From positions 992,001 to 1,056,000 of the forward strand of contig NC_013743.1 of the NCBI RefSeq assembly GCF_000025325.1: a stretch of DNA of 64,000 bases, read 5' to 3'. The notes below the pieces were generated by a model. That model was not told the origin of the DNA. It searched no databases and was given only the letters and a program-made list of their open reading frames with translations. The DNA comes from Haloterrigena turkmenica DSM 5511. GTDB taxonomy: Archaea; Halobacteriota; Halobacteria; Halobacteriales; Natrialbaceae. The first letter of the stretch is position 1. Each line of letters starts with the position of its first letter. The position numbers were made by a program, and so were the translations under genes. This document shows positions 57,792-64,000 of the stretch, in pieces.

Positions 57792-57866
57792 GGGCGCTTA
57801 GCTCAGTCTGGACAGAGTACTTGGCTTCGGACCAAGCTGTCGCGGGTTCAAATCCTGCAGCGCCCA
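57792..57866 (+). tRNA. tRNA-Arg (anticodon UCG)
   Basis: A complete cloverleaf of 75 nt. Acceptor GGGCGCT pairs with AGCGCCC, discriminator A. The D-arm GCTC...GAGT is followed by the anticodon stem CTTGG/CCAAG with loop CTTCGGA (anticodon TCG). Variable CTGTC, T-arm GCGGG-TTCAAAT-CCTGC. No CCA is encoded and no intron is seen. Its last 13 bases plus two flanking bases recur at 61201-61215, marking it as an integration target. Confidence 0.96.
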
Positions 57867-58021
57867 TATTTTTGCGGGGTGTAATCGCCCGAAAGCGGAG
57901 GAACGGTTGCTGAATCGAATGCTGCGCCGTTGCTTTCGTTCGATGGTCGAACGACGAGTGATTTCCACCGGGGTTCGCGTACAGCCAAACCGGTGGCAAT
58001 AGAGAAAATCAATCGCCGATT
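57854..58021 (+). repeat. Left direct repeat: tRNA-Arg 3' end and flank (attachment-like site)
   Basis: It begins with the 15-bp core CCTGCAGCGCCCATA, of which 13 bases are the tRNA 3' end. The following ~150 nt, up to 'AGAGAAAATCAATCGCCGATTG', match the copy at 61201-61369 closely but imperfectly. Confidence 0.75.
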
Positions 58022-58085
58022 GACACAACACCCTTATGATTTGCCAGGACGCGGGTGCTGGATGCAGAAGCTTCGGGTAGCATTG

Positions 58086-59492
58086 CTACGACGTTTTCCG
58101 GGATTCCGCTTTCGATGAAACATGACTTGTGTGCTCTCCTCGGAGAATCTCTGGTTTGAGAACCCGCCATGCGACGCTCGGACGAAGCAGCCTCGTGGGA
58201 GGGTGTTCCATGGAGGCTACGCGGGCGAGAGCGTCACGCAGTTCACCATCGGAGTGCGCTTTGCGGGTAAGCCGAGAGAGGTACCACGCGAACATCCCGG
58301 TACCCGGTGGCGTCGGCCCCGTAGTTTCGGAAAACTGGACGTCAGCGCCGATAGCCATCGTCCAAGCAGTGTCGATGATCGTCTGGACACGGTCGAAGAA
58401 TGCGAGAGCGAGATTTGGGCCGCGAACAGACGCAAGCACGTGGTGAAGCACAAGCGCCTCCAACGCCGCGACGGACATTCCCTGCCCATAAATCGGGTTG
58501 AAGCTGGCGAGGGCATCACCGAGGACGATGAGACCGTCCGGGAACCTATCGAGGTTCTCGTAGTGAACCCGCCGGTTTGACGGAAACGGATAGGATTCGA
58601 TGTCCTGCCAGACTTGTGGGTAGGTTTCTACGAGTCGATGTATCTGCGGTATCGGCAGGCTCGCGGCGAAGTCGGTGAACCCCTCCGGGTCGGTTGGGGG
58701 ATGGTCTCCGTTCATTCCGTGCAGGTTTACCAGCCAACGGTTATCCTCCACGGGAAACACGGCACCACCCCGCGTTCGCGGGGGCGATGCCGCAGCGAAG
58801 AACGTTCGTCGATCGTCCGGGGGACGACGAATGGCCGTCGTGCAATACCCGAGGTCGATCTGAACCTCGTCGATATCGGGCGCATCGAAGCCGTGGTCGT
58901 CCAGCCACGTCGGAGTCCGACTCGTCCGACCGGTGGCGTCCACAACGAGATCGGCAGCGATGTGCTTCTGGTCGGAGCCTTCTCGGACGGCAATCCCCTC
59001 GATCGTCATCGTCTCGGAATCGAAGAGGTAATCTCTGAACTGGCACCCCGTTCTGAGCTCGATGTTTTCGAAACTGGTCACCCGACGTCTAATGACGTGT
59101 TCGAACAGCGGCCGCGTGGCGAAGTACATCGGAAACCGTTTCGTCCCGTCAGCGAGGAACCCCCCTTCGTCGTAGAACTTGAAGTCGCTCGCACCGTCGA
59201 TCAGCAGGCCTCCGGCGGAGATGATGTCTTCTCCGAACCCCGGAAATAAGTCTTCCAATGTAGCCCGGCCCGCTTCCTGAAGCGCATGGATCTGTGGCCC
59301 CTGAGGGACGCCGCGTCGGAAGCTCGAATCGTCGGAGAGCGAATCCTTTTCGATGATCGTGACGGTGTCGTAGCCATCAGCTAGCACGCGGGCAGCGCAC
59401 AACCCGGCGAGACTCCCACCGATAACGGCAGCGTGTTCACCCACCTGCTGGACGCGGCCGGATTGGTAGCGTCGAACCGTTGAGAGTGTCAT
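58086..59492 (-). CDS. FAD-dependent oxidoreductase (monooxygenase-like) on the tRNA island
   Basis: A 468-residue flavoprotein. The dinucleotide-binding motif is 'HAAVIGGSLAGLCAARVLAD' (GxGxxG variant G-G-S-L-A-G, residues about 20-39). Then come 'TVTIIEKDSLSDDSSFRRGV', 'GVPQGPQIHALQEAGRATLE', a second FAD motif 'LDRFPDGLIVLGDALASFNP' and 'IYGQGMSVAALEALVLHHVL' (GD motif). This layout resembles squalene-epoxidase- or halogenase-like flavin monooxygenases with an 'LVVDATGR' segment. The substrate is unknown. The start at 59490-59492 is used. The gene lies inside the island that follows tRNA-Arg, with an HTH regulator 268 nt upstream on the same strand, and its codon use has more A/T in third positions than the neighbours. 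Confidence 0.85.
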   Translation of the reverse strand: MTLSTVRRYQSGRVQQVGEHAAVIGGSLAGLCAARVLADGYDTVTIIEKDSLSDDSSFRRGVPQGPQIHALQEAGRATLEDLFPGFGEDIISAGGLLIDGASDFKFYDEGGFLADGTKRFPMYFATRPLFEHVIRRRVTSFENIELRTGCQFRDYLFDSETMTIEGIAVREGSDQKHIAADLVVDATGRTSRTPTWLDDHGFDAPDIDEVQIDLGYCTTAIRRPPDDRRTFFAAASPPRTRGGAVFPVEDNRWLVNLHGMNGDHPPTDPEGFTDFAASLPIPQIHRLVETYPQVWQDIESYPFPSNRRVHYENLDRFPDGLIVLGDALASFNPIYGQGMSVAALEALVLHHVLASVRGPNLALAFFDRVQTIIDTAWTMAIGADVQFSETTGPTPPGTGMFAWYLSRLTRKAHSDGELRDALARVASMEHPPTRLLRPSVAWRVLKPEILRGEHTSHVSSKAESRKTS

Positions 59493-59760
59493 CGCTGGCT
59501 GCCCTCCAAGGATTGGGGATTGGTCCCCTCGAATCCGGTTCGGAGCCTCGTGATTCGAGACGCCGTGACTGGGGTTCGTCCCATGTCGTTCCTGTTCGCG
59601 TTCAAGTGGCGCACATCTCCAGGGATCACCGAATCGTTTTTCGACTCCATACTGACTCATGGTGGCGCGAGTGCTATCCCATTACTCGGTAAGGAAATCC
59701 CCACGGTGTGAGTAGACCGAGAGAGAACACGACCGTCTGGACGCAATCGAACAGCCGCAG

Positions 59761-60627
59761 TCACTCACCGCTGGAATCGGCTCCTGGCGCTGTCGGGTCT
59801 GCTTCGAACGCACTGGCGTCAATCGGGGAAGCGGCATTCATCCACTCGTCGATCAGATCGTGGGCCCATGAACGGACCGTATCGTTTTCGCTGACGATCG
59901 GCACACCGTACGACTCGTCGATCGGTTCGGGACCGCTTTTTTTAATCAGCACCGTCTCGTCGAAGATCCACAGGTTGCACGGGATGGGGCCCTCGTGTTG
60001 GCGGAGCTCGCTCCCAGCTTCAACGAGCGCTCTCCACCGTTTGGCGCGCTTCGGAGTAGAACCGAGAAATTCGACGAGTTCATCGGTAATGACCCCATTC
60101 ATGGTCATCTGTCTAGCGGTGACCCGCTCGTGCAACGTCGCCCCAAGCGGTTCAGGTGGTGCCAAATGAGCAAGTACCCTGAACTCGGACGTGTTCCCCA
60201 AGAGATCGTTAATAAACCCAATAGCCTCGACAGGGTCTTCGGATTCCGGTCGCCGGACGACCGCGTCGTTGAAGTGCTCAAGACCGATGGAAAGTTCGTC
60301 GATCGGGAGCCACGTAAGCACGTCGTCGAGACGGTGGAGTGTTTCGACCGATTCGATGAAGGGCTTGAACCGTCGCATGAGATGCTGACCGTGGGCTGTG
60401 GCCGCATAATTACCTTCAGTCGTGCGTTTTGCCCACCCTCTCTCTTCCAACTCGTTGATGATCCGATCAAGCGTCGCCCGCGAGACATCCGTTTGATTTG
60501 CCAACGTTCCCCGAGAGTACTGGCCCTCGGTGAGCTCCGTGAGTATCACGACTCGATTGGCGGACCGGGAGAGATACGCGATGTCCTCCAGCGCTCTGGT
60601 CGGGAGTTCGCTGTCTCTTTCGGGCAT
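59761..60627 (-). CDS. HTH transcriptional regulator, FilR1-like
   Basis: A 288-residue regulator. Residues 10-80 form a winged helix ('LEDIAYLSRSANRVVILTEL', 'SRGTLANQTDVSRATLDRII', 'NELEERGWAKRTTEGNYAAT'). The C-terminal two thirds resemble the FilR1 sensor-like domain of archaeal regulators ('EFRVLAHLAPPEPLGATLHE', 'CNLWIFDETVLIKKSGPEPI', 'VRSWAHDLIDEWMN'). It probably binds DNA as a dimer and senses a ligand. It is the only regulator on the island and is placed to control the flavoprotein gene downstream (inference). The DNA is clearly more A/T-rich than the flanks. Confidence 0.82.
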   Translation of the reverse strand: MPERDSELPTRALEDIAYLSRSANRVVILTELTEGQYSRGTLANQTDVSRATLDRIINELEERGWAKRTTEGNYAATAHGQHLMRRFKPFIESVETLHRLDDVLTWLPIDELSIGLEHFNDAVVRRPESEDPVEAIGFINDLLGNTSEFRVLAHLAPPEPLGATLHERVTARQMTMNGVITDELVEFLGSTPKRAKRWRALVEAGSELRQHEGPIPCNLWIFDETVLIKKSGPEPIDESYGVPIVSENDTVRSWAHDLIDEWMNAASPIDASAFEADPTAPGADSSGE

Positions 60628-61200
60628 GACCAGTAATTCGTGTGTCTTGGTAACAAGGGTTGGGGTATTTGAACCGGGAAGACTGTGGATCTAGTCCTGA
60701 TCAGAATTTCGTATTGACTGTGGGCCCTGTATGCAGCAGCGTCTGGAAACCCTCTCAGTGCTATTGACGACGCCACGTACACGTCACTCCTGATATGGAC
60801 GTTGGCGTCACGAGAGGAGTCTACTCGGGAGCAATAGCCGGTTGATTATCTCCAATGTCTCCGAGTCAGGGAACACGAATCACAGTCACCGATGGCCCCC
60901 GACACGGCTCGTAACGAATTTTCCCCGAGTTCAGTATTTCCATACTGAGTAGGTAATAACGGCTCTAAAACACCAAAATGGGTGACTTCAGCACGGCCAC
61001 CGATGTATTCTCGTATCATTCAGATCCACTGCTGTCTGGTGATTCTTCCAGCAGGAGCAACCATCGTTGAGTCTATTAGTAGATACTGAATGTAGAACGC
61101 CCGTATCTTAGGTTTTTCACCTCTGAGAACCTATTTTGAACCCCTCGAAATTAGACGCTTCACAGCTCAAAGGACGATTCGTTCGACAGTTGAAGCAGAG

Positions 61201-61369
61201 CCTGCAGCGCCCATACATTTGAGGTACAATAATCGCCCGACAGCGCGGCGATTATCGGTCGAACGGGCCGATTCGTTGCTTTCGTTCGATGGCCGACCAA
61301 GCGAGTTGGTGTCACGGGGATCCGCGTACATCCAAACCGGTCAGTAGAGAGAAAATCGATCGCCGATTG
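61201..61369 (+). repeat. Right direct repeat: copy of the tRNA-Arg 3' end and flank
   Basis: It begins with the same CCTGCAGCGCCCATA as the tRNA 3' end, then ~150 nt similar to 57869-58021, including 'CGTTGCTTTCGTTCGATGG' and 'CGATCGCCGATTGG'-like text. There is no tRNA body here: the preceding sequence is unrelated. It reads as the distal border of an island inserted at the tRNA. Confidence 0.75.
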
Positions 61370-61595: not shown

Positions 61596-64000
61596 ATGAG
61601 TCAACAGGGCGAACGCAGTGACCAACCGGGGACGCCGGGTCTCGAAAGCGGCCTCGAGGCATTGCGTCAGAGTCCTGAGTTTCGCGGCCCGGTCGAATCC
61701 CTCGATGGTCACGACCACGCCAACGACCATTTCGCACTCATATATAAGAACCGGGACGAGCAGTTCGCGGCCGCCATCCCGTTCATCCGCCAGGGGCTCG
61801 AGCAGGGCGAGCGATGCCTGTACGTCGCGGATGACAACTCGAAAGCAGAAGTACTGGAAGCGATGCGGGCCCGCGGCATTGACGTGGACGGTGCCCTCGA
61901 CTCGGGTGCGCTCTCCGTCCACACGGAGGCGGACACGTACCGCAGGACCGGCACGTTCAATCAGGATGCGATACTGGAGTTCTGGGAGGACTCCCTAACG
62001 GAGGCAACAGACGAGGACGGCTACACGGGAATCAGGGCAGCCACCGAGATGACGTGGGCGCTGGATGAGAATACGAGCCCCGATCAATTGGTTGAGTACG
62101 AAGCGGCCCTCAACTCTCTGTTCCAGAACGAGGACTACACCGTCATGTGTCAGTATAATCGCGAGCGGTTCCCACCCGAGGTGCTCGAAGACGTCATCCA
62201 GACCCACCCGCTCCTCATCCACGACAACGTGATCTCTCACAACGTCTACTACACCCCACCCGAGGAGGTCTTCGGCCCCGAGCAGCCAGCCGACAGGGTC
62301 GATCGGATGATGGGGACGCTGCGCGAGCGAACCGAGGCGAAGACGGAACTCCAGCGATCGAAGGAACACGAGCAGGCCCAGCAGAGATTGTACGAGATCG
62401 TTGCCGATTCCGACCTGCCGTTCGACGACAAACTCCAGGCGGTACTCGAGCTCGGCTGCGAGCGGTTCGACCTCGAATACGGCGGGATCGCCCGCATCGA
62501 TCCGGCGACCGATCTGTTCGAGGTGGAGACCATACGCGGGGACCACGACCACCTCGTCCCGGGCGAGCAGTATCCGCTCTCCGAAACCTACTGCCGATCG
62601 GTGGCGGACGACGGAGAAACCGCTGTCGTCACCGACCCCGTAAGCGAGGGGTTCGAGGGGAAACTGTGCTACGAGCGCTTCGGCGTCCAGACGTACCTCG
62701 GAACCCGACTCGAAGTCGATGGTGACGACGATCGGACGTTCTTCTTCGCCTCGAACGAACCACGGGAGGAGGGGTTCTCTGAGGCCGAACGCACGTTCCA
62801 CCACCTGATGGGGCAGTGGGTGGAGTACGAACTCGAACGGAGGCAGGCCGCGGAGGCGCTGCGCGAACAAACCCACACTCTCGAAACGATCAACCAGGTG
62901 GGCAACTCGTTGGCGGCCGAACTCGACCTCGAGAATCTGGTGCAGAAGGTGACAGACGCCGGTACGGAAATAACCGGCGCGGAGTTCGGTGCCTTCTTCT
63001 ATAACGTCATCGACGACCAGGGAGAATCCTACACGCTCTATACCCTCTCGGGCGTTCCCGACGAGGCGTTCGAAGACTTCCCGATGCCGCGCAATACGGA
63101 GGTCTTCGGCCCGACCTTTCACGGCGAGGGGGTCGTCCGTTCGGACGACATCACCAACGATCCGCGCTACGGTAACAACGCGCCCTACAACGGGATGCCC
63201 GAAGGCCATCTGCCCGTCTGCAGTTACCTGGCGGTTCCCGTAATCTCGAACTCCGGTGAAGTACACGGCGGGCTTTTCTTCGGCCATTCTGAACCGGGCG
63301 TCTTCACCGAGAAGGACGAAAACATCATCACCGGGATTTCCGCTCAAGCGGCCGTAGCCATCGATAACGCTCGTCTGTACGAAACGGCGCGCGAAAGCGA
63401 GCAGCGATTCCGGGCGCTGGTCACCGCGAGTTCCGAAGCCGTGTTTCGCATGGGCCCCGATTGGGACGAAATGCAACACCTCGAAGCCCAGGGCTTCCTC
63501 GCCGACACGAACGAACCGACCAGCGACTGGCTCGACAAATACATTCACCCGAACGACCAGGAGCGCGTCATGGAGGCCGTCAACGAAGCCGTCCGGACAA
63601 AGAGCACGTTCGAGCTCGAACACCGAGTAGAGCAGGTCGATGGCAGCCTGGGCTGGTCGTTCACGCGTGCGGTACCGATGCTGAACGAGGACGGTGACAT
63701 CGAGGAATGGATCGGGATGGCGAGCGACGTTACCGAGCGCAAGCGTCGCCAGCAGGAACTCGAACAAACTAACGCGCAACTGGAACGCTCGAACGCCGAA
63801 TTGAAGCGGTTCGCCTACGCCGCCTCCCACGACCTCCAGGAGCCGTTACGGATGGTGTCGAGTTATGTCCAACTGCTCGAACAACGATATGCCGACGATC
63901 TCGATGCCGACGCACAGGAGTACATCGAGTTCGCCGTCGATGGTGCCGACCGGATGCGCGAGATGATCGATGCGTTGCTGCAGTATTCACGGCTCAACAC
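61596..64000 (+). CDS. MEDS-GAF-GAF-PAS sensor histidine kinase, incomplete at the window end
   Basis: At least 801 residues, still open at 64000. Order: an N-terminal MEDS (DcmR-type) sensory domain (about 40-225; '[20 protein letters not shown]', '[20 protein letters not shown]', '[20 protein letters not shown]'), two GAF domains (about 265-410 and 430-590; the second has '[20 protein letters not shown]'), a PAS domain (about 600-720, ending '[17 protein letters not shown]') and the HisKA helix with phospho-acceptor His in '[20 protein letters not shown]'. The HATPase domain must lie beyond the window. It is a paralogue of the kinase at 3866. MEDS domains respond to one-carbon or hydrocarbon derivatives in some archaea and bacteria; the ligand here is unknown. 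Confidence 0.9.

Follow-up and report, generated by a model that had tools for sequence, protein, structure and literature searches.

A stretch of 64,000 nucleotides from contig NC_013743.1 of Haloterrigena turkmenica DSM 5511 was analyzed (positions 992,001 to 1,056,000, G000:C1:992001-1056000; hereafter the window). The genome (G000) has a size of 5.44 Mb in 7 contigs. Near the right end of the window a small island without an integrase lies directly behind a tRNA-Arg gene. We conclude, with a probability of about 80%, that positions 57854-61213 are one integrase-less unit of a tandem array at this tRNA-Arg gene. The unit resembles a cis-mobilizable element (CIME) and was, in this reading, inserted by an SNJ2-type integrase that was either lost or supplied in trans. 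The parts of this unit (unit 1) and the start of the following one (unit 2) are given below in window positions.

57792-57866, plus strand: tRNA-Arg(TCG), intact, the insertion target (ARAGORN and Rfam)
57854-57866, plus strand: core 1, CCTGCAGCGCCCA, the tRNA 3' end and left junction of unit 1
57867-58022, plus strand: left end (P' arm) of unit 1, about 155 nt, member of a class-wide arm family
57938-57952: inverted repeat GTTCGA-TGG-TCGAAC inside the left end of unit 1
58058-60696, no strand assigned: cargo block of unit 1, 92.3% identical to G093:C5
58086-59489, minus strand: FAD-dependent oxidoreductase, 467 aa (Pfam FAD_binding_3/Pyr_redox_2)
59761-60627, minus strand: transcription regulator with HVO_A0261_N and FilR1_middle domains, 288 aa (Pfam)
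61141-61200, plus strand: right end (P arm) of unit 1, about 60 bp, best over 61161-61200
61181-61195: inverted-repeat-like GTTCGA-CAG-TTGAAG in the right end of unit 1
61201-61213, plus strand: core 2, junction of units 1 and 2
61214-61369, plus strand: left end (P' arm) of unit 2
61596-64000, plus strand: cargo of unit 2, a MEDS-PAS-GAF histidine kinase that continues past the window end (Pfam of the G002 homologue, synteny)

Comparison of 57854-58022 with 61201-61369 by blastn on the fetched loci gave 73% identity over 173 nt at a spacing of 3,347 nt (E 9e-20). This agrees with the first-pass annotation, which had described the tRNA 3' end and its flank as duplicated about 3.35 kb apart. 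The 14-mer CCTGCAGCGCCCAT occurs exactly three times in the 5.44-Mb genome, always within the array and on one strand (reversed-pattern control, 1). Past the window, a third core with a divergent arm was located at G000:C1:1056716 and a fourth core with a good arm at 1063234; the fourth copy differs from the 14-mer by one mismatch. Four cores in register delimit three units, so that the array consists of at least three. The earlier proposal of successive insertions at one site was borne out by these cores and by relatives that hold other units in the same slots. The right end of about 60 bp before core 2 and cores 3 and 4 had no place in that proposal. The oxidoreductase and regulator genes make up the cargo of unit 1, which is 3.35 kb long. 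The histidine kinase is encoded in unit 2 (3.5 kb), which the congeners G001, G002 and G004 also have. Among the contents of unit 3, with a length of 6.5 kb, are genes for a berberine-type FAD oxidase, for OsmC and for two methyltransferases. A second FilR1-type regulator and a FAD oxidase are found 3' of core 4.

The flavoprotein and the FilR1-like regulator that had been predicted between the repeats were confirmed by Pfam. The open reading frame of the oxidoreductase can be extended to 59660, but the start of the G093 homologue corresponds to 59489. The GC content of 57867-61200 is 0.571, below that of every equally long stretch of window positions 1-57000 (lowest 3.3-kb stretch not below 0.623, mean 0.665), and its dinucleotide distance, which had been suggested as a check, falls within the top 6%. 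The island is thus as A/T-rich as had been claimed. Its gene content is limited to the two cargo genes, neither of which is an integrase or a transfer function. Searching from the tRNA to 1070.5k by tblastn with two cognate-type integrases detected no integrase fragment above chance, in keeping with the original description of a tRNA-anchored island lacking an integrase. Neither unit 1 nor the rest of the array has an SNJ2-family integrase beside the attachment site, though relatives have one there.

Alignment of the sites from about 50 loci revealed a composite attachment site with a fixed order of parts. A right end finishing in ...CACGCCTGAAAGGTCGATTCGTTCGACAGTCGAACCGGAG is followed by the 13-nt core and then by the left end of about 155 nt, which finishes near GAGAAAATCAATCGCCGATTG. 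The canonical right end was present in 37 of the 63 non-tRNA sites, in several families. In the window, 61161-61200 has 7 mismatches to the canonical end over 40 positions, and the next best place in the 64 kb has 16. An exact inverted repeat GTTCGA-N(2-4)-TCGAAC was found in 19 of the 63 right ends (background 0.0008 per 45 nt) and a near copy of it in 45 of the 81 left ends, compared with 9% of control pieces of equal length. We regard these repeats as candidate integrase-binding sites. The single-strand folding excess of the site was weak, with z values of -1.25 on one strand and -1.20 on the other. Across 22 genomes, all 40 non-tRNA cores were nearest to the tRNA-Arg end of their own genome among four core types, 30 of them being exact. 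These counts are descriptive only, since the presence of an arm was the basis for choosing the loci and the core search started from the four types with no more than 2 mismatches allowed. Unit 1 is bounded, like a CIME, by attL/attR-type sites with conserved ends (core and left end at 57854-58022, right end and core at 61141-61213), and the core consists of the last 13 nt of tRNA-Arg. The integrase-bearing right ends of G004 (L037) and G043 (L066) read ...CGCGTGACCAAGG before the core, unlike the canonical end. As this noncanonical end is common to two genera, the right ends fall into two types or more.

The similarity between the repeats goes beyond the core, and the first-pass annotation had offered the tRNA flank of a donor as an explanation. 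This was not supported. The sequence of about 155 nt is the element's own left end. It comes after most cores and is missing in the congeners G003 and G005 despite the presence of the tRNA; G005 has a weak partial match only. A profile built on the arm sequence alone matched 29 of 125 genomes of the family and, among the Halobacteria sampled, 94 of 391 genomes, with filters that are strict for large searches and near-threshold matches that may not all be attachment sites. The arm was also found on megaplasmids of Natrinema, Halomontanus, Natribaculum, Halapricum and Haloprofundus, where the tRNA is lacking. An ancestral tRNA flank was rejected on the grounds of this absence in congeners and presence on plasmids. 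The same distribution bears on the idea of a conserved RNA gene or regulatory element 3' of tRNA-Arg that was duplicated by chance to give the repeat, the island having been inserted in some other way. The repeat is intergenic and conserved across the class, as this idea would have it. However, the tRNA is the only Rfam match, and the repeat is missing in most genomes of the family although the tRNA is present, while plasmids without the tRNA carry it. Moreover, it is preceded nearly always by a core and often by a right end, and the adjoining genes lie in either orientation. We consider this explanation very improbable.

The slot between the tRNA and core 2 is occupied differently among the congeners. 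It holds a FAD-oxidase unit in G002, a 10-kb element in G001 and, in G004, 48 kb of sequence with an integrase gene at the distal end. In G003 the match to G000 begins 1.7 kb after the tRNA, from 1070296 onward, and therefore the units of the G000 array are missing there. Unit 1 was not found at the tRNA-Arg site of the five congeners examined. A close homologue of its flavoprotein was likewise not detected in the searched congeners, G003 having only a 50% homologue elsewhere. Unit 1, which is nearest the tRNA, is probably the latest insertion of the array. Unit 2, which G001, G002 and G004 have in common (left-end identity 83.5%, 85% and 96%, respectively), is an older layer. The first-pass annotation had taken repeats in relatives without the two genes as a sign against the island. 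Such repeats do occur in G002, but other cargo lies between them, as is predicted by the array explanation. At L042, L044, L047 and L048, extra copies of the tRNA-Arg 3' end soon after the tRNA retain the longer stretch GGTTCAAATCCTGCAGCGCCCA, which suggests an element type with a longer core that also uses tRNA-Arg.

Stacks of a similar kind are found throughout the class, and whole units recur in other genomes and at other positions. A VOC unit at position 2 in G001 matched, from the arm to the next core, position 1 in G155, a member of another family, with 89-95% identity; about 450 nt are absent inside the G001 copy. The FAD-oxidase unit at position 1 in G002 has a counterpart after core 4 in G000 (74%) and a matching unit in G086 (79%). 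The OsmC-methyltransferase end of unit 3, taken together with core 4 and its arm, matched an array on a Natrinema megaplasmid at 92% identity over 2.7 kb, and from the end of unit 3 through core 4 an identity of 88% to a Haloprofundus plasmid was obtained. Near-minimal units of about 1 kb (0.95-1.3 kb; L082, L085, L086, L091, L088, L089 and L092) contain nothing but either a PIN toxin gene and its small partner or a Fic/Doc toxin gene. These small units are 98-99% identical among three genomes of one genus and 75-91% identical across others.

Such exchange might also result from homologous recombination, with RadA-type crossovers in arms of about 200 bp or in neighbouring genes and with passive cores. 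Arms that are up to 96% identical between strains, and the common unit 2 with its conserved kinase, would supply the homology. Against this, the arms that bound unit 1 are only 73% identical, the cores match the type of the host tRNA in every case (40/40), and one cargo family, represented by the Fic/Doc gene, is found behind three different core sequences. As the route of unit exchange, homologous recombination seems unlikely.

The enzyme family is indicated by the integrases at related sites. These are tyrosine integrases with PF00589 and Phage_int_SAM_1 domains and 45-47% identity to the integrases of SNJ2 and HHPV4. At 12 of the 81 sites, an SNJ2-type integrase or a fragment of one is encoded on the opposite strand within the 700 bp upstream, compared with 1 on the other side. 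Where the right end is canonical, the start codon of the integrase lies about 100 nt from the core. Full-length matches beside a canonical right end were obtained, for example, in Natrinema zhouii, G091, G189, G347 and Halorubrum halophilum. In addition, G004, which belongs to the same genus as G000, has an intact integrase beside core 2. It is this fixed place beside the same right end that points to an SNJ2-type enzyme. The element of Natrinema zhouii (25.7 kb, G105:C1:3206728-3232418, L063-L065) also lies at tRNA-Arg. It has an intact integrase and both family ends, of which the right one is canonical and the left one divergent (E 3e-12). It thus represents an integrase-bearing relative with ends that match those of unit 1, as is expected for a CIME. 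Its cargo, named by eye, reads as genes for type I restriction-modification and for a PIN protein, along with two tyrosine integrases and genes that resemble serine recombinases; no virus genes were recognized among genes named in this way. The element is likely a defence island with its own integrase.

Alternatively, unit 1 may be a single decayed element, that is, an autonomous integrase-bearing unit from which the integrase was later deleted at the right end and which was never mobilized in trans. This version falls within the explanation favoured here, so that their probabilities overlap. Fragmentary or broken integrases at exactly the expected place in G054 (a 57-aa N-terminal fragment), G058 and G094 fit with such a decay, as do the 570 nt 5' of core 2, which are non-coding and have a GC content of 0.486. 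However, unit 1 is without a remnant, units of about 1 kb with the same cargo (PIN pair, Fic/Doc) lack an integrase in several genomes, and the VOC unit lacks one in two families. Independent losses, repeated each time, would hardly account for such recurring integrase-less units. We hold it possible but rather doubtful.

Under the integrase-less array reading, an SNJ2-type tyrosine integrase would recombine a circular form, through its core, with the 3' end of tRNA-Arg. The insertion would restore the tRNA and leave a second core, and since each insertion recreates a core, units would stack. As unit 1 is without an integrase, either the enzyme would have been supplied in trans or the gene was lost. 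A circular intermediate, an integrase acting on these ends and its action in trans are steps that we infer. For the last there is a precedent, as a delta-int SNJ2 provirus regained excision junctions with a plasmid-supplied integrase (PMC13107129).

Several observations weigh against this reading. Neither an excised circle nor movement was observed. The only intact SNJ2-type integrase of G000 (335 aa, 1456603-1457610, L141) lies beside tRNA-Ala(GGC) and a truncated one (453937-454662) beside tRNA-Met, so that no obviously cognate enzyme is present now and unit 1 may be stranded. Within this genome, the enzyme family seems to target several different tRNAs. The homology of the arms could also allow units to move by homologous recombination. 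A mobile vehicle was not found either: none of 50,697 phage records contained an arm match and the exact right-end/core pattern had no match in IMG/VR. A phage origin was rejected for these reasons. Finally, the cargo at 58058-60696 has about 92% DNA identity to G093:C5:115481-118120 (L131), which lies outside any array and shows no arm, right end or tRNA. Consequently, either the cargo of unit 1 was captured or the G093 copy lost its ends. With the same two genes and no attachment parts, G093 was rejected as a donor unit. A tubulin-like gene and an HxlR regulator are found near the flavoprotein-regulator pair in G093.

Among known systems, CIMEs and accretion elements are alike in forming tandem islands behind one RNA gene, as for the ICESt1-related elements of Streptococcus thermophilus and the ssrA islands of Dehalococcoides (PMC3146451). 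There, too, short 3'-end repeats with a conserved motif just upstream form the bounds, and an integrase is found at one end of some islands and in others not at all. The tandem islands of Dehalococcoides with and without an integrase module were suggested to be cis-mobilizable elements (PMC3146451). In contrast to these, the units described here are archaeal and associated with an SNJ2-type tyrosine integrase rather than with the ICESt1 integrase or serine recombinases. They have a much longer conserved left end, occur class-wide and go down to 0.95 kb in size. Additive flexible genomic islands of marine and freshwater bacteria, in which cassettes are added at a tRNA and its 3' end is repeated (PMC5217437, PMC10872708), are similar in this respect. 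The passages of those reports that were consulted define no conserved composite attachment site or integrase family, whereas here both ends and a likely enzyme family can be named. Tycheposons of marine bacteria are a further class of tRNA-bounded element, with a tyrosine recombinase of their own.

SNJ2-family elements (the betapleolipoviruses SNJ2 and HHPV4 and proviruses) have in common with these units a related integrase at the attachment end of the element and a 13-bp core from a tRNA 3' end (PMC8371274). The differences are that the target here is tRNA-Arg, that genes for an integrase, for replication or for virions are lacking in unit 1, and that the integrase-bearing relative carries restriction-modification cargo. 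In the main text of a review of archaeal tyrosine recombinases, neither "cassette" nor "tRNA-Arg" occurs (PMC8371274). We found no description of haloarchaeal cassette arrays in the open-licence literature, where a class-wide archaeal version of this kind, known from bacteria, appears to be undescribed. The right end, core and left end provide a sequence handle for mobile units that are missed by island finders relying on integrases. The units are also linked with an enzyme family for which haloarchaeal genetic tools are available, and the spread of toxin-antitoxin pairs, oxidoreductases and methyltransferases among archaea becomes testable.

A further comparison is with integrons and CALINs, including archaeal ones, which likewise have short gene units in arrays, several with toxin-antitoxin genes, split by a recombination site, and integrase-less arrays (PMC9668308). 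Archaeal integrons use IntI and attC (PMC9668308). The present array differs in being anchored at a tRNA and in having a long attachment site, for which a weak single-strand folding excess was measured (mean z about -1.2). The associated enzyme is SNJ2-like; IntI, attI and attC were not seen, although no search aimed at attI was made. Many of the units of 0.95-8 kb hold toxin-antitoxin or metabolic genes. We tentatively suggest, at somewhat less than even odds, that SNJ2-type integrases act in trans on these integrase-less units of 0.95-8 kb through a site of about 230 nt, and that the units are stacked and exchanged at tRNA-Arg genes and on megaplasmids. If such trans action takes place, haloarchaea would possess a gene-cassette system analogous to integrons, a counterpart with a different enzyme family.

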